Translations under genes and position numbers: made by a program | Shown here: positions 3,055-21,484 of the stretch, one piece after another | Position numbering within the stretch: the stretch's first letter is position 1 | Layout of the letters: every line of letters starts with the position of its first letter | The notes under the pieces: model-generated | Seen by the model: only the letters and a program-made list of their open reading frames with translations | Database searches by the model: none | What the model was told of the DNA's origin: nothing | Origin: Lachnospiraceae bacterium | GTDB taxonomy: Bacteria > Bacillota > Clostridia > Lachnospirales > Lachnospiraceae | Length of the DNA stretch: 64,000 nucleotides | Assembly (NCBI GenBank): GCA_017552715.1 | Contig: JAFZOW010000061.1 | Span: 34,893-98,892 of the forward strand | Direction: 5' to 3'

Positions 3055-4025
3055 GGCTTTTTCCCCACCACGCAGCGCCACTCGCCCTGTGCCTGCGTAT
3101 CCGTCACTTCAAAACCGGCCTGCTCCATGGCCGCAGCCACAGCCGTCTCCCGGCCTTCGATGATGCCGCTGGTGATCACATATCCTCCCGCCTTCACATG
3201 CTTATACAGCTCCGGCATCAGGGGGATCAGCACCTCCGCAAGGATGTTTGCCACGGCGATGTCATAACCCTCACCCACTTTTTCCTGCACGGCGGGGTCA
3301 TCGATGATATTGCCGATGATAAGGGAAAACTTTGCCGTATCGATACCGTTTTTATTGCAGTTGTCTTCCACCGCGGGCACAGCGCAGGGATCCAGATCCG
3401 TAGCCGTCACTTCCGCCGCACCGAACATCAGGGCAAGGATCCCCAGGATCCCGCTGCCCGTTCCCACATCCAGAAGGCGGGTGTCGGCATTTACGAACTT
3501 CCGAAGCTGCCGTATGCAGAGCTGGGTCGTCTCGTGCATGCCGGTACCGAAAGCCGTTCCCGGATCGATATGAAGAACCGGACCCGTGTGCCCTTCGGGT
3601 ACGCTACCTTCCTCCCAGGAAGGAAGGACCAGTATATCATCGATGGAAAAACTGTGGAAATACTGTTTCCAGTTGTTGATCCAGTCCAGATCCTCGGTCT
3701 CGGAAAAAGTCAGCTCTCCGCTGCCTATATCACAGTACTCCGCGGTCTCGGCCAGCTGTGTGCGGATCTTTTCCATGGTGGAGTTCTTCAGCTCTTCCGC
3801 TTCTTCAGCATCTTCCGGCTCTTCCAGGAAAAAGCTGACATAAGCCACGCCGTCATCCTCCTGGGGTTCGGGGGGAATGTCCACGAACATACGCTCCCGG
3901 TCCAGAGGCGTCAGAGGCAGTTTATCCTCGATCTGTGCTCCTTCCAGGCCGATATCGTACATATCGCTGACCAGGATATCCTCCGCTTCCGTAGTTGTCT
4001 GAATAGTAAAGCGAAACCATTTCAT
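3051..4025 (-). CDS. prmA: Ribosomal protein L11 methyltransferase PrmA
   Basis: This 324-residue SAM-dependent enzyme trimethylates ribosomal protein L11. The N-terminal alpha/beta domain (MKWFRFTIQTTTEAED) recognises L11. The catalytic domain has HIDPGTAFGTGMHETTQLC, typical of PrmA, then SAM motif I LLDVGTGSGILGI and the substrate-loop motif VANILAEVL. Length is near the family norm, with an acidic insertion around residues 65-90. ATG overlaps the stop of the upstream glycosyltransferase as ATGA, so this translation gene is the tail of the polysaccharide operon, perhaps only through readthrough transcription. Confidence 0.95.
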   Translation of the reverse strand: MKWFRFTIQTTTEAEDILVSDMYDIGLEGAQIEDKLPLTPLDRERMFVDIPPEPQEDDGVAYVSFFLEEPEDAEEAEELKNSTMEKIRTQLAETAEYCDIGSGELTFSETEDLDWINNWKQYFHSFSIDDILVLPSWEEGSVPEGHTGPVLHIDPGTAFGTGMHETTQLCIRQLRKFVNADTRLLDVGTGSGILGILALMFGAAEVTATDLDPCAVPAVEDNCNKNGIDTAKFSLIIGNIIDDPAVQEKVGEGYDIAVANILAEVLIPLMPELYKHVKAGGYVITSGIIEGRETAVAAAMEQAGFEVTDTQAQGEWRCVVGKKP

Positions 4026-6001
4026 TTGCCGCTCTCCTCCTCTTCCCGGATCTTTAAGCTGTAGTCACTGCGGTCAAGGGAAAAATTAACATTGTAATAG
4101 GGATCCCCTTTAGCCAGCACTTCCTTCCATTTCTCACGGAAACGGGCACATTCTTTTTCATAACGCTCCGCCTTCTCACCGGACAGATCGCTGCCCCGGG
4201 AAGCGGACTCGTAATGATAAAGCTCGCAGAAGGGTGTCCAGATATTGAGCAGCCCCCTTTCCCTGAGCCTTAAGCAGAAATCCACATCATTGAGGGCCAC
4301 GCGGAAATCTTCGTCCAGCCCTCCCAGTTCTTCATACAGCTTCTTTTCCACCATCAGGCAGGCTCCGGTCACTGCCGATACATCCTGGGCATAGCAGAGC
4401 CGTCCCATATAACCGAGGTTTTCGTAATTCACCTTATAGTGGCTGTGTCCTGCGGTACGGTGTGCTCCCAGGCCAAGAACGATGCCCGCATGCTGTATGC
4501 TCTTGTCCGGATAGTAGAGCTTTGCTCCTACAGCTCCCACGTCCTTGCGCTCGGCATACATCAGAAGCTCCTCCAGCCAGTTTAAGGTGATCACTTCCGT
4601 ATCGTTATTGAGCAGCAGCAGATAATCGCCCTCCGCTTCCTTCGCCCCAAAGTTATTCACCTTGGAATAATTGAACTCTCCCTTATAAGTGAGGACACGG
4701 ATCTTCGGATGCTGCTTCAGTTCCTCATAATAGGCAAAGATCTCGGCACTGCGGCTGTTGTTCTCGATAACAAGGATCTCGTACTCCGGCCAGGTGGTCT
4801 TTTCCAGTATGGAATCGATGCAGCGCTTCAGCACGTCCTTCTGCTCGCAGTTGGGGATAAGGATCGAAACCTTTGCGCTCCGCTCCAGCGGATAATGGAT
4901 GCGGAAGATGGTCTCGAAGGCCCTGGTGGATTCAATGCGGAAGTTCTCGTATCCCAGGCTGCGCAGATGCTCCGCCACCGCCCCTTTGGCTGCCTCGATG
5001 GCATACTCCTTGGCGCTGATATCCGCCGCCACGCTGCCCTTATGCGAACGCCAGTAATAAAGTATGCGGGGGATGTGAACGATATTCTTCGCCGCCGCCG
5101 TCAGCCGCAGGATCATGTCGTGGTCCTGGCTGCCGTCGAACTTTGTCCGAAAGAGCTCGGTACCGTCTAAAAGGCTGCGCTTGAAAACGGAAAAATGGCA
5201 GATGTAATTATTGGCCCGCAGATTGTCCGGCGAGAAATCCGGCTTGAAATGCAGGGTGATCATATTATCCACGCTCTTTCCGTGGAAGGTGGTCTCGTCG
5301 CAGTAGATATAATCCGCATCCTGCTCACAGATGGCTTCCATGTAGTAATACAGAGCAGAGGGATGCAGGATGTCGTCATGATCGTAGAGTCCGATGTATT
5401 CGCCACCGGCCATGCCGAGACATACATTGGTATTGCCCGAGATCCCCTCATTCTTCTCAAGCTTTTTATATTTTATGCGGGGATCCCCTTTTGCCTGCTC
5501 CAGGCAGTATTCCCCCACATAAGCATGCTCGGCGTCAGAACCGTCTGCCAGGCAGAGTTCCCACTTTTCGTAGGTCTGGGCCCGGACCGCCCCTATGGTA
5601 TCCTTAAGAAAATCGATGGGCGTGTTATAGAGCGGGACAAGGATGGATATGGTGATATCCTTCGAAAACTTCCTTTCCCTCTGCTTCTTTGCTTCCTCCT
5701 CGTTCGGGAAGCTGGCGGTACCGTGCTGGGCACGGGCTTTCAGTTCGATCTGCTTGCTCTTCAGTTTCCGGGCTATCCCTCTGGGGCCTCCCAGATTGGA
5801 AATGCGGCTGAACTGGCGTTTACTCCAGTGCATGCAGACCCGCAAAGGCTTGGACAGCTTCCAGGGTGTGCTGTTCTTAATGCGGTCGATCTGCCTCTGC
5901 TTCTCTTCCGCAAGAGCCTGCGCCTCGGAAAGCCTGGTAGCCAGCACCAGGTTCTGATATCTTGTCTCTTCCAGTTCTTTTTCCAGTTCTTCCTTCGTCA
6001 T
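4022..6001 (-). CDS. Tandem GT2 glycosyltransferase (659 aa)
   Basis: A cytoplasmic protein with two complete GT-A family 2 domains, presumably adding sugars to a lipid-linked polysaccharide. Residues 1-75 are a coiled-coil-like charged region. Domain 1 starts with ISILVPLYNTPIDFLKD and carries the DXD-like YDHDDILHP. Domain 2 starts with VSILIPNCEQKDVLKRC and carries LLNNDTEV, then GAVGAKLYYPD, GGLDEDFRVALNDVDFCLR and YHYESASRG, the acceptor/catalytic segments of rhamnosyl-type GT2 enzymes. No membrane segment is evident. ATG overlaps the upstream glycosyltransferase stop (ATGA), and its own stop overlaps prmA. The sugar specificity cannot be read; rhamnose is likely from the neighbouring rfb genes. 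Confidence 0.88.
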   Translation of the reverse strand: MTKEELEKELEETRYQNLVLATRLSEAQALAEEKQRQIDRIKNSTPWKLSKPLRVCMHWSKRQFSRISNLGGPRGIARKLKSKQIELKARAQHGTASFPNEEEAKKQRERKFSKDITISILVPLYNTPIDFLKDTIGAVRAQTYEKWELCLADGSDAEHAYVGEYCLEQAKGDPRIKYKKLEKNEGISGNTNVCLGMAGGEYIGLYDHDDILHPSALYYYMEAICEQDADYIYCDETTFHGKSVDNMITLHFKPDFSPDNLRANNYICHFSVFKRSLLDGTELFRTKFDGSQDHDMILRLTAAAKNIVHIPRILYYWRSHKGSVAADISAKEYAIEAAKGAVAEHLRSLGYENFRIESTRAFETIFRIHYPLERSAKVSILIPNCEQKDVLKRCIDSILEKTTWPEYEILVIENNSRSAEIFAYYEELKQHPKIRVLTYKGEFNYSKVNNFGAKEAEGDYLLLLNNDTEVITLNWLEELLMYAERKDVGAVGAKLYYPDKSIQHAGIVLGLGAHRTAGHSHYKVNYENLGYMGRLCYAQDVSAVTGACLMVEKKLYEELGGLDEDFRVALNDVDFCLRLRERGLLNIWTPFCELYHYESASRGSDLSGEKAERYEKECARFREKWKEVLAKGDPYYNVNFSLDRSDYSLKIREEEESGK

Positions 6002-7917
6002 CCGTTTTGTTCTTCCTCCAGACGCGGCGCATATCCGCTCTCAAAGCTTATGCTTACTCCGCACCGCAGTACCTGTTTATTTCTTCCCCGGCTTATCAGC
6101 AGTTCCGCCCGGTATCTTCCGTCGGGAACGGCACCTTCGGGGAGACGTGCCACAAATCCGCTCAGTTCTCCTTCTTTCTGACGGGGCAGGATGGCTGCCA
6201 CATCAGGCCTGTATTTGCGGAAGGTGCTCACACGGTAAGCTTCCCCGTCTTCCCTTTTCAGGATGAGCTCCGTAACGCAGGCTCCGGCACTCTCACGTTC
6301 CGGTGCCGCCCAGCCTTCAATGACCCACTGGGCCTTCATTACTCCGTCTTCGTCAAAATACAGGAGCCGCCTCGCCCCGTCGGTATGCGCAAGGATATTG
6401 GAAGCCAGACGCAGTTTTTTTGCAAGCTTTCCCGCGGGCTTTTTCCTGAAAGGCTCCGGCCCGCCGATCACGGACTCCTTTCCCCGCTTCTCGTATTCGC
6501 AGGGGGCGTTCACATGATACTCCACATCCAGACGCTCCTGTACCAGATGGGGACTGTAATAAGGATCCCTTGCATACAGCTCTTTATGCTTCGTATACAG
6601 ACTTATCCACTCCCGCTGCTGCCGCGCTTTTCTTTCCGGAGAGCTGTCCTCCCCGCGGCTGGCCGACTCATGATGGATCAGGACCGCATCGTTGCGCTGT
6701 ATATTCCTATAGCCCTTTTCGTAAAGCGAAAAGCAGAGCTCCACATCATTGTAAGCCACCGCAAGCGTTTCGTCAAAGCCCCCCACAGCAAAAAAACGTT
6801 CCTTCTCTATGGCCATGCAGGCAGCCGTTACTGCCAGTACATTCCGGTCGGCAAGGTTGATTCCGTGATAATAGGAGCGGTCGTCCGGAAGCCCTCCCAG
6901 CTTATGCACGGGACCGAGGGCTATATTGCTGATTCCGGCATGCTGTATCCGCGGTGTTTCTCCCTCCCCGTAAGGGTAGTAAAGCTTGGCGCCTACGGCA
7001 CCGGCGTATTCCTGCATGGCGGTGGCCGCCAGGATCCTCATCCAGTCGGGCCGGATGATCTCGATATCATCGTTTAAGAAGAGCAGCACCCCGCCCCGGG
7101 CCGCCCGGGCTCCGCGGTTGCACATACGCGAGAAATTGAAATCCTCTTTTTCATAGATATAGTCGAAAAGGTATTTCCGGCGCAGTTCCTCGATCTGCTG
7201 CCGTTTATCCTCTCCCGAACCGTTATCCACCACCAGGATTTCGCAGGAAGGATAATCGGTAAGTCTTTTGAGGCTGCCGAGGACACGCTCCAGCAGTTCG
7301 GGATGATCCTTTGAAGGGATGATCACCGATACCGTTACTTCCTTCCCTCCGGGAAAAGTTCCAAGCGGATGACGGACCTCTTTATCCTGCGGCGGCTCCC
7401 CGGCATGGAAAAGGATGCGGTCCATATGGAAAACTTCCGCCCCGCTCTTAAGCAGTTCCTCCGTCAGTTCTTCAATATCCTTCTTCTCCGAAAGAAGCTC
7501 CGGTCTTTCTTCCAGAGCTTTCTTCCTGAGGGCGATCAGTCCGCCGAAATAAGGCAGGGAAGCATGGCTTTCCGGCGACCAGTCCGGCTTGAACCAGGGG
7601 TCGCTGCGGCTGTCTCCCCGCAATACATCCTCATCTCCGTAGATGATATGCACGGAAGGGCGGGACATAAAAATATCGGCCAGTTCCTTCATTGCAGGAA
7701 CGGCCACGCTGCCCGCCTTATGAAAGACCAGATATTCCGCCTCCGGAAGCTTTTCCGGCAGGCCTTCCTCCATGGGCAGCAGGGCTACGCTTTCCGGAAG
7801 CTCCATGCCCTCCGTACCGCCGGGCTCATGCTCCGGTATCCACTGTTCATAGGGATGGGTCTGGCGGTAGAGTTCCTCTTCATATCCGGCTCCGGCCTTT
7901 ATATCCCGTCTGCTCAT
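5998..7917 (-). CDS. GT2 glycosyltransferase with C-terminal beta domain (639 aa)
   Basis: The open frame extends upstream to 7995, but ATG at 7917 is chosen because AGGAGG lies just before it and it overlaps the previous stop as ATGA. Residues about 60-200 look like the rear half of a GT-A domain (IIYGDEDVLRG, WFKPDWSPES) without a clear nucleotide-binding front half. A full GT2 domain follows: VTVSVIIPSKDHPELLERV, LFLNDDIEI, GAVGAKLYYP, GGFDETLAVAYNDVELC, IHHESASRG. The last ~130 residues form a beta-rich domain with TFRKYRPDVAA and LPEGAVPDGRYRAEL, also found at the end of the neighbouring 1226-residue protein. It probably extends the exported polysaccharide; the linkage is unknown. Confidence 0.86.
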   Translation of the reverse strand: MSRRDIKAGAGYEEELYRQTHPYEQWIPEHEPGGTEGMELPESVALLPMEEGLPEKLPEAEYLVFHKAGSVAVPAMKELADIFMSRPSVHIIYGDEDVLRGDSRSDPWFKPDWSPESHASLPYFGGLIALRKKALEERPELLSEKKDIEELTEELLKSGAEVFHMDRILFHAGEPPQDKEVRHPLGTFPGGKEVTVSVIIPSKDHPELLERVLGSLKRLTDYPSCEILVVDNGSGEDKRQQIEELRRKYLFDYIYEKEDFNFSRMCNRGARAARGGVLLFLNDDIEIIRPDWMRILAATAMQEYAGAVGAKLYYPYGEGETPRIQHAGISNIALGPVHKLGGLPDDRSYYHGINLADRNVLAVTAACMAIEKERFFAVGGFDETLAVAYNDVELCFSLYEKGYRNIQRNDAVLIHHESASRGEDSSPERKARQQREWISLYTKHKELYARDPYYSPHLVQERLDVEYHVNAPCEYEKRGKESVIGGPEPFRKKPAGKLAKKLRLASNILAHTDGARRLLYFDEDGVMKAQWVIEGWAAPERESAGACVTELILKREDGEAYRVSTFRKYRPDVAAILPRQKEGELSGFVARLPEGAVPDGRYRAELLISRGRNKQVLRCGVSISFESGYAPRLEEEQNG

Positions 7918-10900
7918 TTTCCTCCTATATGCAGAAGTGTTTCTGCCCGTCGATAAAGAACCTGTCTGGATATGCGGCTCTTTGCCTCCACCCACAGCTC
8001 ATAGTCTCCGGCAGGCAGGGCATCTGCGGCGAGACGGACAGCCAGACCCGACAGCTCCACATGCAGCTGTTCGTCGTAGGCCGCCTCCACATCCGGACGG
8101 TAACGCCTGAATGCCGGCAGACGGTAAGCTCCCCCCGGGCCTTTCAGATACAGGGAAAAACGGTAATCCGCATTATCCCAGCCCCGCACATGCACATGGA
8201 GACTGATGCGAAGGCTTCCGTCCCGGGGATCCCTGCGGGGGCGTTCCCAGGAAATGATCAGGGCCTCGTTCACGGGTTCAAAGCTCTTCTCCGCAGCACT
8301 CTCCGGCCGCGTACATAAGGGCAGCAGCCGGTCCTCTCCCGTGAATGCCGGACGGTACAGGGCACTTTCACTGCTCAGGGCCTCATGATCCCAGGGATCA
8401 CTGTATGCGTAAAGAGGATTTCGTGCATTCAGCTTATCCAGTTCGGCATACAGCCTCTGCTTCTTTTCCTCATCCTTTGTATCGTCACCGCGGCTGGCGG
8501 ATTCATGGTGGATCAGGCGCACGTCGTTACGCAGCACACAGCGAAGGCCCTCCGCATTCAGGCGCATGCACAGATCCGCATCGTTATAGGCCACCGGCAG
8601 TTCCTCGCAGAAGCCACCGATCTCTGTAAATACTTTCCTGGAGATCAGCAGGCAGGCCCCCGTGACTCCCAGCACATTCCTCACTCCCCGGTTCCTGCCC
8701 CGGTCGCAGGGCTGCGTATCATCCACTCCGGCCAGGCGGTGCCTCGGTGCATCAAAAGGCTTTTGAATACCGCAATGCTGGATGCGGTAGCCGTAGTCCC
8801 TGCCGCCGCCGGGATAATACAGCTTTGCGCCTACAGCGCCTATCCCCGGCTGGGCAGCCTGTCCCAGCATACGCTCCAGCCAGTCACCCGTCAGCAGCTC
8901 CGTATCGTCATTTAAGAACAGGAACCAGGATCCGTAGGCCTCTCCGGCTATACGGTTACAGAGCGCAGAAAAATTAAAGTCCGCTTTTTCGTACAGATAT
9001 CGCAGATCATATTCCCGGGCCAGAGCCTCGTACTGTTTTCGTTTTGCCTCACAGCTGCCGTTATCCGCCACCAGGATCTCGTAATCCTTAAAGCTTGATT
9101 TTTCCCGGATCGAAGAAACACAGTTACGCAGAAGCTCCGGCTGGTCCTTGGAAAGGATCAGGATGCTTACGCGTCCCTTGGGCAGATCGTAGAGCGGATA
9201 AGCCGTACCGTCCCCGTCCGTGACAAAACGGCCGCCGATCTTCTTCCTGGAAAGAAAACTCTCCTTTAAGGGGATGAACTCCTCCCCCCCTCCCGGGGCA
9301 TCGCTGAGGAGCATGCCCTCCAGGCTCTTAAGCTCCGCTTTTTTTACACTCTTATGATAGAGCACTTCCCTTATATGTGCCGGCGGCTCCGCCTCGGCAA
9401 GCTGCAGGCAGAGGGCGTAAAGGAATGGCAGACCTTTAAGGGAAGCGCAGTCCTCTTTCATGCCGGCCAGGGCCGCTCCAGCCGGGCCGCTCCGGACAGC
9501 CACCAGAGAGCCGATATAAAAGGAACTCAGGAATGTTTCCGGCGACCAGTCGGGTTTATAATAGGGGAAGCATAAGACGCATTCCTCATCACAAAGATCT
9601 TCATCCGTGTAGAGCCAGAGACAGTCTTCATGCTCCGAAAAATAATGTTCCATGCCCCGCACGGCTCCGGAAGCCAGGGCGCCTCCCCTGTCGGCAAAGA
9701 TCAGGAAGTCCGCCTTCGTATCCAGCATTTCCGCACAGGCACTGTCATAGGGGATCAGCAGGGTCTTCGAAACCTGACGGCTCTCGCTCAGCACCATACC
9801 GCCTCCCGCAGGCTTAGTGTAGGGTTCCTTCTGCCGCTGAAGCTCCGTCTCGTAACTCCGCAGTGCAGAAGCATGAAGGGCTCCCTGCAGGACCGCCTTC
9901 AGGCCGTGCCGCTCCGGCGCGGAGCTTTCCTCTGTTTCCGCAGCCGCTGCCGGCGGAGCCGTCCTCTCTTCCTGGGGTTTATGTGCCGCGTGGGCCAGAA
10001 GCTCATTCCATTCTCCGAGAGCCGGCCGCGTTCCGGTAACGCTCTTCTGGAAAGCACGCTCCGTAGCCCGGAGGGCATCGATATCGAAATGCAGGGAAAG
10101 CTCCGGATAAGCCTCCGATAAGAGCTCCTCCGTAAGCTTCTTTCCCGATGCGTTATATTCCCTGAAAAGATAGAGCCCGCGGATCAGGTTCTTTTCCGGA
10201 TCCCCGGCTTCCTCCTTCGCCCACTCGTAATCGATGAGCTGCCAGGTCCCGTCGCAGAGTATCAGATTGGAAAACTGCACATCCGGGTTGTCCGGGCCTT
10301 CTTCCGCCTTATGATATACAAAATCCCTGTAAGTTCGGAGCAGGGATAGGGCACCCTCTCTGTCATCACTCTTTAATACACGCTCCAGTTCCTCTTCCAT
10401 GGTAGGGCCTTCCAGAAAAGGAAAGCGCAGTGCATCCCCTTCTTTTTCGCAGGGACAGACGGAAAGCCCCGTACCTTCGTAGCGCTTTCTTAAGCCCTCT
10501 TCCCTCCGGCTTATCCCCGAAACGTGCTCCTTTGCCTCTTCTCCCATGGGGCGCTTATATACCCGGCGTACACCCTTTTCGTCCTCTTCGATATCGGTAC
10601 GCAGCACATAGGCAGCGGCACGGTCATTGGAGTATTTGGAATAGACCAGCTCCGGCTCGGGCCCGCAGATCAGCAGATAGGAATTGGAAAAAAGCGGATA
10701 CAGGCCGTCCCGTATCATGGAATCGTAGGCAAGCTGCTCGTCAAAGAGCTCCATACGGTCCCGGTCCAGCTTCAGATGATTGACCGAAAGCTCCCCTTCC
10801 CTGGGCAGACGGCGGTCGGAATACAGGTACTGCATGAATTTGTAATCCGGATAGGGATAGTAGAAATGGTGATCCGTAAGCCCCTCCGCAGCCAGCAGCC

Positions 10901-11594
10901 GCTCCAGGGCCGGCCTGGAGAAGGTACGTACCACGCCGCCGGAAGGATAGTCCTCGATGCCGGAGAAATAATCCCCGAGATGATCCTCCCTGGCGCCGCC
11001 GAAATATTTCATGCCGAGGCGGTTTTCAATGGCAATGATGATGCTGCCGCCGGGCCTGACATGTTTTTTGATGATGCGGAGAAAGCTTCCGTAGGGATCC
11101 TCATCATGGATATAGGCCGCCGCATATTCAAAGACCCCGATCAGGAAGATGGCATCATAATCCGCCGGCATGGCAGGTTCGATATCTTCAAAATTTCCCA
11201 CATGGATACAGATATTCTCCGCATCCCTGTGACGATATGCATTGATGAGACTGCGCTTTTCGGAAAGCTCCACGCAGTCCAGACGTCCGGCCGTTCCCGC
11301 CTTTCTCGAAAGCACTCCACTGATGGCTCCGCAGCCTGCTCCCACTTCCAGGATGCGGCTGCCGGGCTTTATGGGGATCCACTCCACGATATTCTCTCTT
11401 ATATCGGAGAGATGATAGAGCACCGGCCAGGACAGGTGCTCTTTTATGGCCCGGGGATAATCCGAGGCAGCAGTGGTCTTTACGATCTCCAGGATCTCGT
11501 CTTCCACGGCACCGTCGCAATAAAGGTCACTGCCGCCGTATTTCGACAGATCCAGAAGAACCTTTCCTATGCGTCTGCTCTGCTCCGTACTCAT
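7914..11594 (-). CDS. Methyltransferase / kinase-like / glycosyltransferase fusion, WbdD-like (1226 aa)
   Basis: A multi-domain cytoplasmic protein. Residues ~45-250 are a SAM methyltransferase (motif I SRILEVGAGCGAISG at 79-93; post-I CVELSEKRS; VRPGGSIIIAIEN). Residues ~300-500 resemble an aminoglycoside-phosphotransferase/LPS-kinase fold: YKRPMGEEAKEHV (possible nucleotide Lys), FPFLEGPTMEEEL (hinge), NPDVQFSNLILCDG (catalytic-loop-like Asp and Asn) and QLIDYEWA (metal Asp). Residues ~600-790 are a partial GT-A domain (YTDEDLCDE, YYKPDWSPE). Residues ~800-1050 are a full GT2 domain (RVSILILSKDQPELLRNC, LFLNDDTEL, VAYNDADLCMRL, IHHESASRGDD). A C-terminal beta domain carries FRRYRPDVEAA. Methyltransferase plus kinase next to a Wzt/Wzm exporter recalls WbdD, which caps O9a chains; that parallel is inference. 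ATG overlaps the wzt stop. Confidence 0.82.
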   Translation of the reverse strand: MSTEQSRRIGKVLLDLSKYGGSDLYCDGAVEDEILEIVKTTAASDYPRAIKEHLSWPVLYHLSDIRENIVEWIPIKPGSRILEVGAGCGAISGVLSRKAGTAGRLDCVELSEKRSLINAYRHRDAENICIHVGNFEDIEPAMPADYDAIFLIGVFEYAAAYIHDEDPYGSFLRIIKKHVRPGGSIIIAIENRLGMKYFGGAREDHLGDYFSGIEDYPSGGVVRTFSRPALERLLAAEGLTDHHFYYPYPDYKFMQYLYSDRRLPREGELSVNHLKLDRDRMELFDEQLAYDSMIRDGLYPLFSNSYLLICGPEPELVYSKYSNDRAAAYVLRTDIEEDEKGVRRVYKRPMGEEAKEHVSGISRREEGLRKRYEGTGLSVCPCEKEGDALRFPFLEGPTMEEELERVLKSDDREGALSLLRTYRDFVYHKAEEGPDNPDVQFSNLILCDGTWQLIDYEWAKEEAGDPEKNLIRGLYLFREYNASGKKLTEELLSEAYPELSLHFDIDALRATERAFQKSVTGTRPALGEWNELLAHAAHKPQEERTAPPAAAAETEESSAPERHGLKAVLQGALHASALRSYETELQRQKEPYTKPAGGGMVLSESRQVSKTLLIPYDSACAEMLDTKADFLIFADRGGALASGAVRGMEHYFSEHEDCLWLYTDEDLCDEECVLCFPYYKPDWSPETFLSSFYIGSLVAVRSGPAGAALAGMKEDCASLKGLPFLYALCLQLAEAEPPAHIREVLYHKSVKKAELKSLEGMLLSDAPGGGEEFIPLKESFLSRKKIGGRFVTDGDGTAYPLYDLPKGRVSILILSKDQPELLRNCVSSIREKSSFKDYEILVADNGSCEAKRKQYEALAREYDLRYLYEKADFNFSALCNRIAGEAYGSWFLFLNDDTELLTGDWLERMLGQAAQPGIGAVGAKLYYPGGGRDYGYRIQHCGIQKPFDAPRHRLAGVDDTQPCDRGRNRGVRNVLGVTGACLLISRKVFTEIGGFCEELPVAYNDADLCMRLNAEGLRCVLRNDVRLIHHESASRGDDTKDEEKKQRLYAELDKLNARNPLYAYSDPWDHEALSSESALYRPAFTGEDRLLPLCTRPESAAEKSFEPVNEALIISWERPRRDPRDGSLRISLHVHVRGWDNADYRFSLYLKGPGGAYRLPAFRRYRPDVEAAYDEQLHVELSGLAVRLAADALPAGDYELWVEAKSRISRQVLYRRAETLLHIGGK

Positions 11595-12838
11595 CCGGGC
11601 TCCTTTATCTCGATGCGGGAATTCATGTCGAAATATCCCACGGTATTCTTGTCGCTGATGACCGTGATGTGCAGGGCATCGTAAAGACGGTGGTAGACCG
11701 TGAACTCATCCCCCTCATAGCCGGTCAGGCCGAAGGAGAGCAGGTATTCCCCGCCCTGCAGGTCCATACGCTGGGTAAAGCGGATCTGAAGCTTCTCTCC
11801 GGCTTTCATATCCCGCAGGAAAGCTTTCTCAAACATGGTGTTGGTGCCCGAGATCTCGGTCCCTTTTACATCCTTAAAGCTCAGGGCAAAGATGGGCGCC
11901 GGCAGATCCTCCTTCGCGCTCACCTCCATATAAACGCTGCATTCGTCTCCCTTGATCAGGGCATTGGTGGTAAGACCTTTGGCATCCGTGACCCAGACCT
12001 TATCGATGCAGGCCTTTCCGGAACCGTATTCCAGAGCCTCCGTATTCTCACCGGGCAGCTTCCGGTCCTCTCCCAGGGAGATATCCGCATCGGCGGCGTA
12101 CTGGCCCACCAGTACCTGTTTGTACAAGTCCAGCATTTCCTTGGGCTTCCCCTCCCCCAGCTTCTTTCCCTTTTCCAGAAGGATCACACGGTCGCAGTAT
12201 TTTGCGATGCTGGACATGTCATGGCTCACAAAGAGTATGGTGCGGCCCTGGGCACGGAACTCTTCAAACTTGCGGTAGCATTTGGCCTGGAAGAACACAT
12301 CTCCCACGGAAAGGGCCTCATCCACGATCAGGATCTCGGGCTCGATATTGATGGCCAGGGCAAAGGCCAGGCGCACGAACATGCCGGAAGAATAAGTCTT
12401 CACCGGCTGATATACATAATCCCCTATATCCGCAAATTCCAGTATCTCCGAAAGGCGCTGATCGATCTCTTCCCTGGAAAAGCCGGTCATGGCACCGTTT
12501 AGATAAATGTTCTCGATACCGCTGTACTCCATATTGAAGCCGGCTCCCAGCTCCAGCAGGGCGGAGATGCGTCCGTTCACCTCAAGCTCTCCGCCGGTGG
12601 GGGTAAGTACTCCGGTGATGAGCTTTAAGATCGTGGACTTTCCGCTGCCGTTGGTGCCGATGATGCCCACAGTCTCCCCACGCTCTATCGTAAAGCTTAC
12701 GGAAGAGAGTGCATGATGATCCTTATGCAGTTTTTTCCCCGTCAGGTGCAGCGCCTCCCGCAGCCGGTCCGAAGGCTTATCGTAGAGCGCATAATCTTTG
12801 CACAGATCCTGAACGCGGATCACAACATCCTTACTCAT
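11591..12838 (-). CDS. wzt: ABC exporter ATPase with Wzt-like C-terminal domain
   Basis: This 415-residue ATPase of a polysaccharide ABC exporter has Walker A GTNGSGKST, the Q-loop region SALLELGAGFNMEYSGIEN, signature YSSGMFVRLAFA, Walker B ILIVDEAL and the switch His in FVSHDM. These are hallmarks of the TagH/RfbB/Wzt subfamily. After ~residue 250 a beta-sandwich-like domain of about 160 residues follows (KVWVTDAKG, VYMEVSAKED, YLLSFGLTGY). In E. coli O9a the equivalent domain binds the capped chain end before export. ATG and stop each overlap their neighbours as ATGA, consistent with coupled synthesis with the permease and the fusion enzyme. Confidence 0.9.
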   Translation of the reverse strand: MSKDVVIRVQDLCKDYALYDKPSDRLREALHLTGKKLHKDHHALSSVSFTIERGETVGIIGTNGSGKSTILKLITGVLTPTGGELEVNGRISALLELGAGFNMEYSGIENIYLNGAMTGFSREEIDQRLSEILEFADIGDYVYQPVKTYSSGMFVRLAFALAINIEPEILIVDEALSVGDVFFQAKCYRKFEEFRAQGRTILFVSHDMSSIAKYCDRVILLEKGKKLGEGKPKEMLDLYKQVLVGQYAADADISLGEDRKLPGENTEALEYGSGKACIDKVWVTDAKGLTTNALIKGDECSVYMEVSAKEDLPAPIFALSFKDVKGTEISGTNTMFEKAFLRDMKAGEKLQIRFTQRMDLQGGEYLLSFGLTGYEGDEFTVYHRLYDALHITVISDKNTVGYFDMNSRIEIKEPG

Positions 12839-13629
12839 AACACATCCGCAAAATGGGGCTTTAAGCGCTTATAGATCCGCCGCCCCAGGAAATAGAACAG
12901 TGCGCACACTGCCCAGAAATAGATATTGATCCATCCCTGCTGCCAGAACCATCCTCCGAAAAAAAGGGACTCACGGTAACCGTTCACCACATAATAAAGG
13001 GGATTCAGCTTGAATACGATACGCAGGCCTTCCCACTTCCCTTTCAAAAAGCTCAGGTCCCAGAGGATGGGGGTTGCCCACATCCCGATCTGCAGAAGGA
13101 TGTTCACGATCTGCTGCAGATCCCGGAAAAAGATCACCACACTGGCCGTGATATAGGAAAGGCCAAGCAGCAGGCAGAACAGGCATAAGCTGTAATAGGG
13201 CAGCTGCAGAATACTGAGAGACGGCCTGTAGCCGTAACAGAAGTACATCACCACCAGTACCAGCATGAAGAAGACATGCACGAAAGCGCAGGCTGCCAGC
13301 TTTACCCTCGGCAGCAGCCCGATCTCGAAGACCACTTTTTTGACCAGGTAGCTGTACTGAAGGAAGGCCTGCATGCCCTGCATCATCCCTTCACTGAAAT
13401 AGAACCAGGGTACCAGCCCCGCCGTGAGCCACAGCACATATTGTACATCTATACCTTCGGCAAGACGCTGGGAACGGGTATCAAAGACCAGCTCAAAAAC
13501 AAAATAGTACAGCGCCACCGTTACCAGGGGCTGCACCAGTGCCCATACGATGCCCAGATAGGATCCGGCATAGCGGGTCTTGAAATCGTTCTTCGCCAGG
13601 GTCCAGACGAGTCCCTTTTTGCCTTTCAT
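12835..13629 (-). CDS. wzm: ABC-2 type polysaccharide exporter permease
   Basis: A 264-residue integral membrane protein with six predicted helices. The N-terminal LVWTLAKNDFKTRYAGSYLG and GIVWALVQPLVTVALYYFVF are typical of the TagG/Wzm/KpsM ABC-2 family. Later segments include VIFFRDLQQIVNILLQIG and LNPLYYVVNGYRESLFF, the usual pre-TM6 signature. It would form the membrane channel with the Wzt-like ATPase, moving undecaprenyl-linked glycan to the outer face. ATG overlaps the rfbC stop, and its stop overlaps the ATPase start (both ATGA). Teichoic acid export is the main alternative, but the rhamnose genes favour a rhamnan-type polysaccharide. Confidence 0.92.
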   Translation of the reverse strand: MKGKKGLVWTLAKNDFKTRYAGSYLGIVWALVQPLVTVALYYFVFELVFDTRSQRLAEGIDVQYVLWLTAGLVPWFYFSEGMMQGMQAFLQYSYLVKKVVFEIGLLPRVKLAACAFVHVFFMLVLVVMYFCYGYRPSLSILQLPYYSLCLFCLLLGLSYITASVVIFFRDLQQIVNILLQIGMWATPILWDLSFLKGKWEGLRIVFKLNPLYYVVNGYRESLFFGGWFWQQGWINIYFWAVCALFYFLGRRIYKRLKPHFADVL

Positions 13630-14177
13630 CCGCGGTATTCCTTTATGCCTCCCCAGTTCCGGTCCCGTTCAATGATATTTAATTCCATCCCTTCGGGTAT
13701 AGGCCACTCGATGGCCAGATCGGGATCGTCCCAGCGCAGGCCGCCCTCATCACCGGGGTGATAATAATCCGTGCACTTATAGCAGAACTCCGCATAACCG
13801 GAGAGCACCAGAAAACCGTGGGCAAAGCCCTTGGGCACAAAAAACTGTTTCCTGTTCTCCGCTGAGAGCACAACACCGAACCATTTTCCGAAGGTTTCCG
13901 AGCCTTCTCTCAGATCCACCGCCACGTCAAAGACTTCGCCGCGCACCACACGCACCAGCTTGGCCTGGGGATGCTTGATCTGGAAATGCAGTCCCCGCAG
14001 CACTCCACGGGTGGAGGAGGACTGGTTGTCCTGTACGAAAACGCAGTCAATGCCTGCGGCCTTGAAATCCTCGTACTGGTAGGTCTCCATAAAATATCCG
14101 CGTTCATCCCCGAAGAGCTTGGGTGTCACCACCTTCAGTCCTTCGATCTCACATGTCTCTACCGTGATCTGTCCCAT
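13626..14177 (-). CDS. rfbC: dTDP-4-dehydrorhamnose 3,5-epimerase
   Basis: A 183-residue cupin enzyme, third step of dTDP-L-rhamnose synthesis. It shows LFGDERGYFMETYQ, VFVQDNQSSSTRGVLRGLH (the catalytic His region), VRVVRGEVFDVAVDLR, FVPKGFAHGFLVLS and YYHPGDEGGLRWDDP, all diagnostic of RmlC. The frame is open upstream to 14267, but the ATG at 14177 fits because MGQITVETCEI is the family start and GGAGG lies 11 bases before it. The longer start would also run into the preceding GH25 gene, which ends at 14186. It lies between a GH25-like gene and the ABC permease instead of next to rfbA. Confidence 0.95.
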   Translation of the reverse strand: MGQITVETCEIEGLKVVTPKLFGDERGYFMETYQYEDFKAAGIDCVFVQDNQSSSTRGVLRGLHFQIKHPQAKLVRVVRGEVFDVAVDLREGSETFGKWFGVVLSAENRKQFFVPKGFAHGFLVLSGYAEFCYKCTDYYHPGDEGGLRWDDPDLAIEWPIPEGMELNIIERDRNWGGIKEYRG

Positions 14178-14185
14178 TTTTCTTT

Positions 14186-15418
14186 CTACCTCCCCACATC
14201 CCGAAGGATATTCATATTCACCCGGCTGAGGACGCCCTTTACGCTTCCTCTCGAGCTGTACTGCCACAGACTGTAGTTCCCGGTATAAAGAGGCTTGTCC
14301 CGGTACTCCGCCAGCCAGTGCACATAATCCGTCAGTTCTCCGTCGATCAGTTTTTCATTAAACCAGACACGGCCGGCATACACACCGGCATTCAGGCCCG
14401 CACTTTCCACGGTCTCGCAGAAGGCTTTCACCACATCGGTACGCTCTCTGGGATCCATGGCATCGGCCCGGCCTTTGCCCTCGGCTCCCTCTACGGCGAT
14501 AAAGACAGGGTATTCCAGCTTATAGCCCCTGCACAGCTCCAGGGCCGCGGAAGCTTCCTCCACCGCCTCGGTGGGATTGGTGGCCTGGCTGAAAAAGTAT
14601 ACGCCCACACCCAGTCCGGCTTTTTTTGCCCCTTCGATATTGGACTTAAAGCAGCGGTCCTCCACCAGATAACCCTGGGAACAGCCGCGGTAGCCGCAGC
14701 GCAGGATCACAAATTCAACCCCGTCGGCTTTCACGGCCTGCCAGTCGATCTCCATCTGGGCCGAGGAAACATCGATCCCCAAGACCGTCCCTTCATCCGT
14801 GCGTTTTCCGCTCTGCTCCGTCTCATCCGCATCCTGTGCGGCGGAAGACTGGCGCAGATCCTCCGCTGCGGGATCCACTTCCTCCTCGCTGCGGATATAA
14901 ACAGCTATATCACCGATGGGCTTAAACTCCAGCTCTGCCTTAACGCTTACCGGCATGGGATCCGTCGGGCATTCATAGCCCTCCACACGCTTAAGCTTTA
15001 CAAAGTACTCGCCGGGCTCCACATCCGGGATGTAGATCTGACCGTCCTGATCCAGATCCTTGTACTCTCCCAGAGGATCCACCTGCACATAAAAAGCCTT
15101 TCCCCGTACCGGGCGGCCCTCCGCGTCAACCACGCTGACCCGTATATCCCTGGCCACACTGCCCAGCAGCATATTGAGCCTGGGCTTCTCTTCCGCAACT
15201 GTCGTCGTCGGGGCTTCAACAATTTCCTCATCCCCGTCAAAAAAATGCGGATCGTTCAGAAAAGCCCTGTAGGGATCGGCAACGCTTGTTTCGCCTGTTC
15301 CCGTCGGCGCAGGCGTTTTTTTCTTTCCCTGCTTATTGGCATAGCCCACCAGCAACAGCATCAGAAAGAGCACGGATACCGCTGCCAGGATCGCCAGGTT
15401 TCGTACACGCCTTTCCAT
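14186..15418 (-). CDS. Membrane-anchored GH25-like protein with altered active site
   Basis: 410 residues. An N-terminal anchor (LAILAAVSVLFLMLLLVGYA, residues ~8-27) precedes a Thr/Pro linker and a beta domain (~85-180, SVVDAEGRPVRGKAF, DGQIYIPDVEPGEYFVKL). A GH25 muramidase-like barrel follows from ~215 (VLGIDVSSAQMEIDWQAV, VGVYFFSQATN, LWQYSSRGSV). GH25 enzymes use a D-x-E pair; here the motif reads VFIAVEGA, so the Asp is Ala, and the terminal VDLN motif reads VNMN. The larger paralogue at 17396-20104 keeps both. This copy is probably a weak or inactive hydrolase, perhaps a glycan-binding partner. It lies 2 bases from rfbA and 8 from rfbC. Confidence 0.85.
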   Translation of the reverse strand: MERRVRNLAILAAVSVLFLMLLLVGYANKQGKKKTPAPTGTGETSVADPYRAFLNDPHFFDGDEEIVEAPTTTVAEEKPRLNMLLGSVARDIRVSVVDAEGRPVRGKAFYVQVDPLGEYKDLDQDGQIYIPDVEPGEYFVKLKRVEGYECPTDPMPVSVKAELEFKPIGDIAVYIRSEEEVDPAAEDLRQSSAAQDADETEQSGKRTDEGTVLGIDVSSAQMEIDWQAVKADGVEFVILRCGYRGCSQGYLVEDRCFKSNIEGAKKAGLGVGVYFFSQATNPTEAVEEASAALELCRGYKLEYPVFIAVEGAEGKGRADAMDPRERTDVVKAFCETVESAGLNAGVYAGRVWFNEKLIDGELTDYVHWLAEYRDKPLYTGNYSLWQYSSRGSVKGVLSRVNMNILRDVGR

Positions 15419-15420
15419 TC

Positions 15421-16290
15421 TTACAGGCCGTCCGCCACTTCCTTCAGGTACTGTCCGTAAGCTGTTTTCATCAGCGGCTCCGCAAGCTTTAAGAGCTGCT
15501 CACGGTCGATAAAGCCTCTCTTAAAGGCGATCTCTTCGATGCAGGAGATATAAAGCCCCTGACGTTTCTGAAATGCCGCAACAAAGTCGGCGGCATCCAG
15601 CAGCATATCGTGGCTGCCCGTATCCAGCCAGGCAAAGCCGCGGCCCAGGGTCTCCACGTGAAGCTGCCCCATCTCCAGATAGGCATTGTTCACGCTGGTG
15701 ATCTCGATCTCGCCCCGGGCGGAGGGTTTCACGTTCTTCGCGATCTCCACCACCTGATTGTCATAGAAATACAGGCCGGGCACCGCATAATTACTCTTGG
15801 GATGCTCGGGTTTTTCCTCAATGGAGATGGCTATCCCATCTTCATTGAACTCCACTACCCCGTATTCTCTGGGATCGCGCACATAATAACCGAAGATGGT
15901 GGCTCCGCTCTCTCTGGAAGCCACGGTGCGCAGAAGCTTCGAAAAGCTCTGTCCGTAGAAGATATTGTCTCCCAGGATCAGCGCCACACTGTCGCTGCCG
16001 ATGAACTCCTCACCGATGATAAAGGCATCGGCCAGGCCCCGGGGAGTTTCCTGTACGGCATAGGAAAACTCTATGCCCAGCTGGCTGCCGTCACCGAAAA
16101 GCTCCTTAAACACCGGCAGATCCCTGGGGGTGGAGATGATCAGTATCTCCCGTATCCCCGCCAGCATCAGGATGGAAAGCGGATAGTATATCATGGGCTT
16201 GTCATAGACCGGCATGATCTGTTTGGAAACCGCCTTGGTAAGCGGGTAAAGTCTTGTACCGGATCCACCGGCGAGGATGATACCCTTCAT
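15421..16290 (-). CDS. rfbA: Glucose-1-phosphate thymidylyltransferase
   Basis: 289 residues. It makes dTDP-glucose from dTTP and glucose-1-phosphate, the first step of dTDP-L-rhamnose synthesis. The N-terminus has [20 protein letters not shown] and [17 protein letters not shown], the nucleotide-binding signature and sugar loop of Rml[11 protein letters not shown] and [10 protein letters not shown] follow. Length matches the family. AAAGGAG lies seven bases before ATG. It sits between rfbB (10-base gap) and the GH25-like gene. No rfbD (final reductase) is present in the window. Confidence 0.96.
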
Positions 16291-16300
16291 ACTTTCTCCT

Positions 16301-17380
16301 TTATACCTTATACATGGAATCGTAATACTTCTGGTAATCGCCGCTGGTAACGTTCTTCATCCAGTCTTCGTGGGCGAGATACCATTCGATGGTAAGACGT
16401 ATACCGTCCTTAAAGCAGGTCTCGGGCTCCCAGCCCACGGCCGCGCGGATCTTATCCGGCGCAATTGCATAACGGCGGTCATGGCCCTTACGGTCCTCCA
16501 CATAGGTGATAAGATCCCGGCTCACATTGGCCTTTCTCGGATCGGAATCCGGGAGGATCTCCAGCAGGGTATCGATGATGAGCTGCACGATCTCGATATT
16601 CTGCTTCTCGTTATGGCCGCCCACATTATAGGTTTCGAAGAGTTCGCCCTTCTCCTGCACCATATCGATGGCCTTGGCATGGTCACGCACATAAAGCCAG
16701 TCGCGGACATTCTTTCCGTCCCCGTATACCGGCAGCTTCTTTCCGGAAAGGGCATTGTTGATCATCAGCGGGATCAGCTTCTCCGGGAACTGATAAGGCC
16801 CGTAGTTATTCGAGCAGTTGGTGATATTGGCCGGGAACTTGTAAGTATCCATATAGGCCCGCACCAGCATGTCGGAACCCGCTTTGCTGGCGGAATAAGG
16901 CGAATGGGGTGCGTAAGGGGTGGTTTCGTAGAAATAACCGTCCCCCTCCGGCAGGGAGCCGTAAACCTCATCGGTGGACACATGCAGGAAGCGCTTCCCT
17001 TCCGGATAAGTCCCGTCCGGCTTTTCCCAGGCGGCCCGGGCACAGTTCAGCATATTGGCGGTACCCAGGACATTGGTCTTTACGAACACCCCGGGATCCT
17101 TGATGCTGCGGTCCACATGGGATTCCGCCGCAAAATGCACCACACGGTCGATGTCGTTTTCCGCAAAGATCCTGCTGATGGCTTCGGTATCGCAGATATC
17201 GGCCTTCACGAAGGTATAATTATCGCGGCCTTCGACTTCCTTGAGATTTTCGGGATTTCCCGCATAAGTCAGCACATCTACATTGATGATGCGGATCTCG
17301 TCCCCGTATTTCTCAAACATGTAATGAATGTAATTGGATCCGATAAAGCCGGCCCCGCCGGTCACCAGATATGTTCTCAT
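16301..17380 (-). CDS. rfbB: dTDP-glucose 4,6-dehydratase
   Basis: 359 residues, extended short-chain dehydrogenase fold. It converts dTDP-glucose to dTDP-4-keto-6-deoxyglucose. NAD-binding motif [14 protein letters not shown] is at the N-terminus. [13 protein letters not shown] and the active-site series [13 protein letters not shown] and [15 protein letters not shown] supply the Thr-Asp-Glu and Tyr-Lys catalytic residues. [18 protein letters not shown] and [10 protein letters not shown] complete the family pattern. GGAAGGAG precedes ATG. It is the second gene of the operon, 15 bases after the large GH25 gene. Confidence 0.96.
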
Positions 17381-17395
17381 ATTAAGCTCCTTCCT

Positions 17396-20104: not shown

Positions 20105-20159
20105 AATCTCCTCCGGCACCTAGGTGCAAATAAAAACATTATGTAAACATACTGCTCTT

Positions 20160-20203: not shown

Positions 20204-20339
20204 CGTCTCTATTCAGAACCGCCTTGCGTTTCTGAACAGAGACGCGATTTGTCCATCCAGAATCGGCTTCGCCGATGAACAAATCGCCGTAAAACTCGGG
20301 CAACGCTTCGCTATCCCTCGCGGTGTTCTGAATAGTTAC
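20204..20339 (-). repeat. Palindromic intergenic repeat, copy 1
   Basis: On the minus strand it starts GTAACTATTCAGAACACCGC and ends near GTTCTGAATAGAGACG, so the ends are inverted repeats of one another. Inside are a GGCGATTTGT..CGGCGAAGCCGAT palindrome and a hairpin at 20204-20246 (CGTCTCTATTCAGAA against TTCTGAACAGAGACG). The same start and the GGCGATTTGT/CGGCGAAGCCGAT core recur at 32947-33085. The manC stop codon (20336-20338) is inside the repeat edge. No coding potential is apparent, which suggests a miniature mobile or REP-like element. Confidence 0.7.
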
Positions 20340-21406: not shown

Positions 21407-21422
21407 AATGATAAACCTCCGT

Positions 21423-21451
21423 TTGAGTAATTTCCGATTCTGTGATACAAT
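21423..21451 (+). promoter_or_regulatory. Promoter of the DPM1-like glycosyltransferase
   Basis: TTGAGT (21423-21428), 17-base spacer, TACAAT (21446-21451). It lies in the 78-base gap between the divergent manC and glycosyltransferase starts. Expected transcription start is near 21458, with AAAGGAG and ATG at 21485 following. Confidence 0.65.
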
Positions 21452-21484
21452 GCGTTTATCCAAAAACATAAAGGAGCATGCATT

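Follow-up and report, generated by a model that had tools for sequence, protein, structure and literature searches.

A putative methyltransferase-kinase chain terminator joined to a glycosyltransferase beside a Wzm/Wzt exporter in a Lachnospiraceae genome

In Escherichia coli O9/O9a, the C-terminal domain of Wzt reads a cap made by WbdD, a protein with a methyltransferase followed by a kinase and a long coiled coil but no glycosyltransferase (GT), whose gene lies directly after wzt (PMC3482155). The O7 terminator of Klebsiella pneumoniae, ORF6, puts a methylphosphate on the terminal rhamnose in a Wzm/Wzt pathway. Its description runs from an N-terminal methyltransferase through an APH-like kinase, not annotated before, to two C-terminal GT2 modules, and includes an Ig-like carbohydrate-binding module (CBM) and a coiled coil. 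Its reported key residues are Y28, Y66, G91, G93, E112 and Y158 for SAM and D441 for the kinase, and the D441A substitution abolishes kinase activity. In the Klebsiella systems a coiled-coil ruler sets chain length, and in both O7 and O12 the cap enzyme is already fused to polymerising transferases (PMC11231755). The ortholog list of that paper covers alpha- and gammaproteobacteria and cyanobacteria, its Discussion adds a Methanoculleus, and the words Firmicutes, Clostridi and Gram-positive are absent from its main text. WsaE of the Gram-positive Geobacillus stearothermophilus, encoded beside wzm/wzt, joins a methyltransferase to two rhamnosyltransferase domains and makes a 2-O-methyl rhamnose cap (PMC2943079), and the Wzt of Aquifex reads a 3-O-methyl cap (PMC9445017). 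In the open-access literature searched, no paper on a methyltransferase-kinase enzyme in Gram-positives surfaced, and no end-group chemistry of any Lachnospiraceae polymer was found.

The locus compared here with these systems (Table 1) belongs to a genome of a genus whose other members are listed under Lachnospiraceae, in agreement with the Gram-positive host presumed by the first-pass annotation. Like wbdD, the gene of P0001 directly follows a wzm-wzt pair with a Wzt C-domain. ATGA overlaps were read in the DNA at the wzm/wzt, wzt/P0001 and P0004/P0005 junctions; the P0001/P0004 junction is an ATGA overlap too when the ATG at 7917 is taken as the start of P0004, a start that was adopted on account of that overlap in place of the GTG at 7995 given in the ORF list. 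The proposed coupling of P0001 to an exporter ATPase of the Wzt_C type was confirmed. P0002 contains an ABC nucleotide-binding domain (NBD; Pfam ABC_tran, E 8.9e-23) followed by a Wzt_C domain that is predicted to bind a cap. This NBD plus C-terminal domain layout is the one found in the E. coli O9 and Aquifex aeolicus Wzt proteins. Genes of the RmlC, RmlA and RmlB types adjoin the exporter locus, and an RmlD match (E 8e-89) lies elsewhere in the same genome.

Table 1. Features of the exporter locus. Positions refer to the window, the whole 64,000-nt stretch of DNA that was analysed.
Feature	Position	Strand	Basis or remark
P0005, two GT2 domains	4022..6001	-	Pfam
P0004, partial GT-A + GT2 + beta; paralogue of P0001 C-terminal half	5998..7917	-	start = ATG at 7917
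P0001, 1226 aa: methyltransferase/kinase/partial GT-A/GT2/beta	7914-11594	-	
P0001 res. 1-312, SAM methyltransferase (Y25, Y60, G85, G87, E109, Y157)	10659..11594	-	Pfam; 62-row conservation; alignment to O7-type stand-in; relatives have the gene naturally split near residue 310
P0001 res. 315-545, APH-like kinase (R325, T333, K347, D438, N443, D455, E457, W458)	9960..10652	-	42-row alignment; HMM-HMM match to APH kinases
P0001 res. 571-800, partial GT-A without N-terminal part	9195..9884	-	hhalign
P0001 res. 801-1065, complete GT2 glycosyltransferase	8400..9194	-	Pfam; hhalign
P0001 res. 1076-1226, beta domain common to P0004	7917..8369	-	hhalign 99.9 to P0004 tail
P0002, Wzt exporter ATPase, 415 aa	11591..12838	-	Pfam; 37% identity over 423 columns to E. 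coli O9 Wzt; Aquifex Wzt E 4e-84
P0002 res. 269-405, Wzt_C (predicted cap-binding) domain	11624..12034	-	PF14524 E 3.4e-41
P0003, Wzm exporter permease	12835..13629	-	PF01061 E 1e-13
RmlC	13626..14267	-	PF00908 E 7e-72
RmlA-type nucleotidyltransferase	15421..16290	-	PF00483 E 1.2e-75
RmlB-type dTDP-glucose 4,6-dehydratase	16301..17380	-	named from sequence and neighbours

P0001 probably terminates chains in a polysaccharide pathway that depends on Wzm/Wzt and is fed by dTDP-rhamnose, and it carries a glycosyltransferase on the same polypeptide; it is best read as a variant of the O7-type terminator that lacks the ruler and occurs in a Gram-positive. We infer a capping role from the observed domains, active-site residues, O7-type homology, operon coupling and Wzt_C association; the sugar, the methylphosphate product, the place of the cap, its recognition by Wzt_C and the part of each GT are put forward as a model. 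In the cytoplasm, P0004, P0005 and the GT2 of P0001 would assemble a rhamnose-rich chain that is attached to a lipid carrier. The P0001 kinase would phosphorylate the non-reducing terminal sugar, and its methyltransferase would then methylate that phosphate. The resulting methylphosphate cap may halt chain growth, and Wzt_C may read it and license export through Wzm.

The SAM methyltransferase of P0001 was recovered by Pfam as Methyltransf_23 with an E value (1.8e-6) barely past cut-off, and the three quoted motifs were found in the protein (ILEVGAGCGA at residue 81, NPDVQFSNLI at 436 and LIDYEW at 453). No family above cut-off was returned by an NCBIfam search, and the only addition from PHROGs was a weak match to a GT. 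A PDB search with the single sequence gave generic methyltransferases and GmaR, with no kinase among the matches. The first-pass annotation had called the protein WbdD-like, which fitted the predicted function and the gene position but failed for family. The WbdD reference was the gene of E. coli HS (O9), located by its position and carrying 12 of 12 published residues checked. Kinship of the methyltransferases amounted to a general Rossmann match only (hhalign 78 columns, E 1.9e-4, probability 47), and the WbdD kinase scored like shuffled sequences (blastp best E 1.6; hhalign probability 0.2; -2.0 bits, with 251 of 2000 shuffles as good), so WbdD was rejected as the family of the P0001 kinase.

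A kinase-like region had also been proposed, and both its HMM-HMM match to APH enzymes and its catalytic residues argue for a putative APH-like kinase. Against 27 APH kinases the profile reached an hhalign probability of 84 (E 7.6e-6), with D438, N443 and D455 in register with the APH HGD..N..D motif, whereas seven unrelated families used as controls gave E 0.062 or worse. R325, T333, K347, N443, D455, E457 and W458 are present in all 42 aligned, divergent kinases and D438 in 41 of them; conservation of the catalytic residues is as high in the kinase as in the methyltransferase. No Pfam family was found in the region from the P0001 sequence itself, and PF01636 was found in just one of the 42 members of the set (E 0.003). 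In PDB searches the full profile A1 matched JAK kinases (E about 4e-4), and the kinase-only profile A2 returned nothing below E 0.089; the hhalign match of A2 to protein kinases was weak (probability 5.8, E 0.0065). A control match between the kinase and methyltransferase profiles (probability 70.7 over 11 columns) was discounted because both profiles contain residues 305-312 through overlapping cuts. The missing Pfam family, the weak PDB matches and a fusion found in only 6 of 35 genus genomes would suit a dead or unrelated scaffold that was passively joined to a neighbouring gene. Such a scaffold is very improbable, however, given that K, N, D and E are invariant and one further D near-invariant across the 42 sequences, and that the D441A variant of the O7 protein loses its kinase activity (PMC11231755).

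Among characterised proteins described in the sources consulted, O7 ORF6 (PMC11231755) is the closest to P0001. The comparison was made through a stand-in from Pseudomonas asturiensis, whose gene follows wzm-wzt on a plasmid and which has the six O7 SAM residues at identical numbers and a D at 443. These residues align with Y25, Y60, G85, G87, E109, Y157 and D438 of P0001. The stand-in scored 203.9 bits against the Lachnospiraceae methyltransferase profile and 34.5 bits against the kinase profile (best of 2000 shuffles, 4.4), which indicates homology to the O7-type methyltransferase-kinase over both domains. The second Gram-negative relative, from Citrobacter, reached only 11.1 bits against the kinase profile; every one of 2000 shuffles scored lower, but several control kinases scored higher (12-14 bits). 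K347 is replaced by H and R in these two Gram-negative relatives, and D455 by E in Citrobacter. P0001 shares with ORF6 the N-terminal methyltransferase, the APH-like kinase, a C-terminal GT2 and the Wzm/Wzt pathway, but it differs in its Gram-positive host, in having one partial GT-A and one full GT2 with a beta tail, and in having neither CBM nor coil. WsaE resembles P0001, by description only, as a Gram-positive methyltransferase-rhamnosyltransferase fusion with overlapping genes by wzm/wzt; it differs in its 2-O-methyl rhamnose cap and in that the available description includes no kinase (PMC2943079). Such a cap raises another possibility: the methyl group would go onto a hydroxyl of the terminal sugar, as it does with WsaE and in E. 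coli O8, and the kinase would have a structural role or act elsewhere. It is favoured by these methyl caps, by the 3-O-methyl cap recognised by the Aquifex Wzt (PMC9445017), and by the residues of P0001 at the HH pair (H132/H133) that WbdD needs for phosphate: E156 and Y157 stand there, with E in 60 of 62 rows and Y in 59. We regard it as unlikely, as the kinase is conserved on a par with the methyltransferase, both domains occur in all 40 family regions read, and the O7-type relative makes methylphosphate (PMC11231755).

The enzyme is tightly associated with one Wzt_C subfamily. In a survey of co-occurrence across 150 family genomes, which had been suggested earlier as a check, 77 carried both enzyme and Wzt_C, 2 the enzyme only, 15 Wzt_C only and 56 neither (Fisher 1.5e-24), so that 77 of 79 enzyme carriers also had Wzt_C. 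A Wzt with NBD and C-domain ended no more than 150 bp upstream of the enzyme in 32/40, 66/80 and 18/20 regions (overlapping sets). When Wzt_C copies were split at E 1e-35, a threshold picked after the scores were seen and without a clean gap, the enzyme lay within 5 kb downstream of 72 of the 77 strong copies and of 0 of the 30 weak ones. These results bear on whether the kinase and methyltransferase might decorate internal or side-chain sugars, with Wzt_C reading something else. The absence from P0001 of the long coiled-coil ruler of the Klebsiella terminators (PMC11231755) could be taken that way, as could the strong copies with the enzyme 1-5 kb downstream (6/77) or not within 5 kb downstream (5/77). 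Yet the tie to a single subfamily speaks against decoration, as does the shared gene order, which is wzm-wzt-terminator-GT in E. coli O9 and on a Citrobacter plasmid and wzm-wzt-terminator+GT on a Pseudomonas plasmid; we give decoration only about a one-in-ten standing, slightly below that of a methyl cap.

For the GT half, the partial GT-A, the full GT2 and the C-terminal beta domain named from the sequence were all supported. Of the 264 columns in the profile of a full GT-A neighbour, residues 571-800 cover only 89-210 (hhalign probability 99.4), and the GT2 was found by Pfam with E 3e-16. The beta tail as a CBM-like replacement or a Wzt_C look-alike was unsupported (hhalign E 0.1-0.4). The same single-frame fusion (1215-1231 aa) occurs in five other genomes of the genus, and it is therefore not an assembly join. 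Open frames of 1353-1460 aa in several unfused genomes were rejected as fusions, because the DNA shows two ORFs, and these genomes were left out of the count of 6 in 35. The two halves are neighbouring genes in 13 of the 15 unfused genomes read, and the fusion is recent within the genus. A terminator gene and the GT gene following it would have fused, with loss of a CBM-like terminator end. In the wider family (regions from 40 of 76 matching genomes), the methyltransferase and kinase are in one ORF in 25 and in separate ORFs in 15. Acetatifactor muris DSM 23669 is a carrier in culture whose terminator is not fused to the GT. The fusion of a cap enzyme to polymerising transferases has precedents in Klebsiella O7/O12 (PMC11231755) and in Gram-positive WsaE (PMC2943079). 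The further idea that length control is built into P0001 is unsupported, because neither a coiled-coil ruler nor a carbohydrate-binding domain was found; an in-house heptad scan of limited sensitivity gave no coiled coil, the Ig-like CBM of O7 ORF6 is absent, and only about 25 residues separate kinase and GT.

The enzyme was present in 78 of 149 Lachnospiraceae genera sampled. We tentatively suggest, with less assurance than for P0001 itself, that methylphosphate-capped rhamnose polymers with a cap-reading Wzm/Wzt may be general in this family, and that this genus may combine chain termination with a polymerising transferase in one ruler-less polypeptide, with length set by another principle, for example GT/kinase competition in cis. 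If so, capped-chain export would not be confined to Gram-negative O-antigens and one S-layer exception, and a dominant gut Gram-positive family would have a common means of finishing a surface polymer. A methylphosphate end group, testable by 31P NMR, would be predicted for polysaccharides with unexplained chain-length control, and a putative function would be assigned to a kinase domain invisible to Pfam. Separate genes, split domains and fusions, with or without CBM or coil, would form a natural series for asking what the coiled-coil ruler does. Among the relatives, 18 of 21 uncut A1 rows have a tail of 130-158 aa after the kinase, and this CBM-like tail matches the Pseudomonas stand-in weakly (hhalign E 5.8e-4, probability 29).

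The C-terminal half of P0001, the 1226-aa methyltransferase-kinase-glycosyltransferase protein, is a paralogue of the neighboring glycosyltransferase protein P0004 (35% identity). In 15 of 40 fetched family regions the kinase has an ORF of its own, apart from that of the methyltransferase (about 300-330 aa), so the border between the two is naturally drawn. Pfam gave no match in the P0001 kinase and found APH in one of 42 relatives (E 0.003). In the alignment of these 42 relatives, R325, T333, K347, N443, D455, E457 and W458 were present in all and D438 in 41. Profile-profile comparison of the kinase with 27 APH kinases gave a probability of 84 and an E of 7.6e-6 with the D, N and D in register, versus E 0.062 or worse for seven unrelated families and a probability of 5.8 for protein kinases. 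Against the PDB, the wider methyltransferase-kinase profile matched JAK kinases at E about 4e-4, and the kinase-only profile reached a best E of 0.089. Taken together, the sequence comparisons indicate that this region is likely an active APH-like kinase.

Domains of P0001 (residues) and features near the locus (window positions)
Feature	Position	Remark
Methyltransferase	P0001 1-312	
Kinase	P0001 315-545	
Partial GT-A	P0001 571-800	Aligns to columns 89-210 of the 264 in the first P0005 GT (probability 99.4)
Full GT2	P0001 801-1065	
Beta domain	P0001 1076-1226	Common to P0001 and P0004
GH25 (lysozyme-type) protein	14186-15418	Among rml genes
GH25 (lysozyme-type) protein, longer of two	17396-20119	Among rml genes; choline-binding-type repeats
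ManC-type mannose-1-phosphate guanylyltransferase	20336-21934	Near locus; NTP_transferase + ManC beta-helix

P0001 was compared with WbdD of E. coli HS, the identity of which was confirmed at 12 published residues. No match was obtained by blastp (E 1.6), profile comparison returned only a general methyltransferase match, and the kinase profile scored -2.0 bits on WbdD, with 251 of 2000 shuffles as good. Phosphate methylation by WbdD needs a histidine pair (PMC3482155), the position of which is occupied by EY in P0001 and its relatives (59-60 of 62 rows). Kinship by descent between P0001 and WbdD was rejected on the blastp value, the kinase score and the EY residues. The first-pass annotation had called P0001 a putative WbdD-like capping enzyme fused to a polymerising transferase; as a family name, "WbdD-like" was abandoned, given the blastp result, a kinase score at shuffle level and a methyltransferase match of general kind.

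The nearest characterised protein is Klebsiella O7 ORF6. Its published description gives a layout of methyltransferase, formerly unannotated APH-like kinase, Ig-like CBM, coiled coil and two GT2 modules, with phosphate added first and methyl second to the terminal rhamnose; D441A abolished the kinase reaction and left the polymer non-exported (PMC11231755). When plasmids were searched with the methyltransferase-kinase part of P0001, eight records were obtained, and the two best, from Pseudomonas asturiensis and Citrobacter braakii, both lie directly 3′ of wzm-wzt. The P. asturiensis protein has Y28, Y66, G91, G93, E112 and Y158 at the published O7 numbers, and D443 for O7 D441; since it carries these key residues, it was used as the O7 stand-in through which the comparison was made. 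It scored 203.9 bits against the Lachnospiraceae methyltransferase profile and, for the cut region, 34.5 bits against the kinase profile (best of 2000 shuffles, 4.4). Its whole frame scored 27.0 bits and ranked first of 368 background frames, followed by control kinases at 14 or less. The Citrobacter kinase, at 11.1 bits, exceeded all 2000 shuffles (best 6.8) but stayed below several of these control kinases. Through the stand-in alignment, the key residues of O7 correspond to Y25, Y60, G85, G87, E109, Y157 and D438 of P0001. The match is imperfect: in place of K347 the Pseudomonas and Citrobacter proteins have H or R, and in place of D455 the Citrobacter protein has E. The Citrobacter plasmid, pF217-3, was typed as conjugative; flanked by insertion sequences, it carries a full cluster of the order rmlBACD-wzm-wzt-terminator-GT-GT-GT (4207-17838).

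In the 3.43-Mb host genome, all genes of interest lie on the minus strand, in the order RmlB, RmlA, GH25 protein, RmlC, Wzm (P0003), Wzt (P0002), P0001, P0004 and P0005. ATGA overlaps join successive genes from wzm to P0005, the P0001/P0004 junction only if the ATG at 7917 is taken as the start of P0004. In the stretch 7915-7995, the listed GTG start gives an 82-base overlap with P0001; the ATG, with its good ribosome-binding sequence and the ATGA overlap, is more likely the start. P0005 (4022-6001; GT2-GT2) is better conserved across the family than the terminator (for example, 65-88% for its first domain versus 45-62% for the terminator), as if its product were a common part of the polymer. 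Because RmlABC types adjoin the operon and an RmlD match lies on another contig, the chain is probably rhamnose-containing, and with the ManC-type gene close by it may additionally be fed by GDP-mannose. The most likely function of P0001 is an O7-type cap: phosphate and then methyl would be added to the terminal sugar of this chain, and Wzt_C would read the resulting cap. No LytR-CpsA-Psr family match was found in the whole genome (rated 100% complete), indicating that the ligase which usually attaches wall polysaccharides is either absent or too diverged to be recognised.

The coupling of the enzyme (the methyltransferase-kinase) to the exporter was surveyed in 150 family genomes of 149 genera. 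PF14524 (Wzt_C) was present in 92 genomes, the enzyme in 79 (78 genera) and both in 77 (Fisher 1.5e-24, not a clean probability since the genomes are related). The 107 Wzt_C copies were split at E 1e-35, a cut-off chosen after the scores were seen, into 77 strong and 30 weaker copies. Downstream of the strong copies, on the same strand, the enzyme was found within 5 kb in 72 of 77, within 1 kb in 66 and within 150 bp in 52, and all 77 genomes with a strong copy carry it somewhere. For the weaker copies it was nearby in 0 of 30, though 11 of the genomes concerned also hold a strong copy. The two-domain Wzt ends within 150 bp upstream of the enzyme in 32/40, 66/80 and 18/20 fetched regions, sets that overlap and were picked for presence of the enzyme. 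Such an association would be expected of an enzyme whose product is the ligand of the strong Wzt_C subfamily. Outside the family the enzyme is less common (found in 15 of 398 phylum genomes, four of these 15 being Lachnospiraceae), and several phylum genomes have large methyltransferase proteins 3′ of Wzt.

A frame spanning P0001 end to end was found in 6 of 35 genus genomes. The locus was read in 15 of the other 29: methyltransferase-kinase and GT protein are adjacent genes in 13, and a methyltransferase gene precedes a kinase-GT-GT fusion in two. A quick tree of 45 rows placed all six fused proteins, together with a single unfused one, in a group with full support; across the family, kinase-GT fusion requires at least four changes of state. 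A CBM-like tail of 130-158 aa follows the kinase in 18 of 21 uncut relatives and is gone from P0001. A home-made heptad scan detected a coil in WbdD, a short coil in the protein from Pseudomonas and none in P0001; of 138 relatives in overlapping sets, 11 had any coil C-terminal to the kinase. The scan is not very sensitive: at L056, a relative's locus, at least one evident coil escaped it. In some relatives a coil occurs with an SWK.TKPL motif resembling SRSWRMTKG of WbdD. Whereas O7 ORF6 has both CBM and coiled coil, P0001 was found to have neither; because of this, it was filed as a variant predicted to work like the O7 terminator rather than as a plain member. Fused terminator-polymerases are already known in O7 and O12. 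In a Gram-positive, WsaE is a known fusion of a methyl-capping methyltransferase to a GT. As far as literature searches show, the O7-type methyltransferase-kinase in Gram-positives and its spread through Lachnospiraceae are new, as are its association with a single Wzt_C subfamily and the fused form without coil and CBM. Among the relatives' loci, methyltransferase-kinase proteins reach 1890 aa at L074, two stand side by side at L060, and L180, from another Bacillota family, encodes a 1555-aa methyltransferase protein with two GTs.
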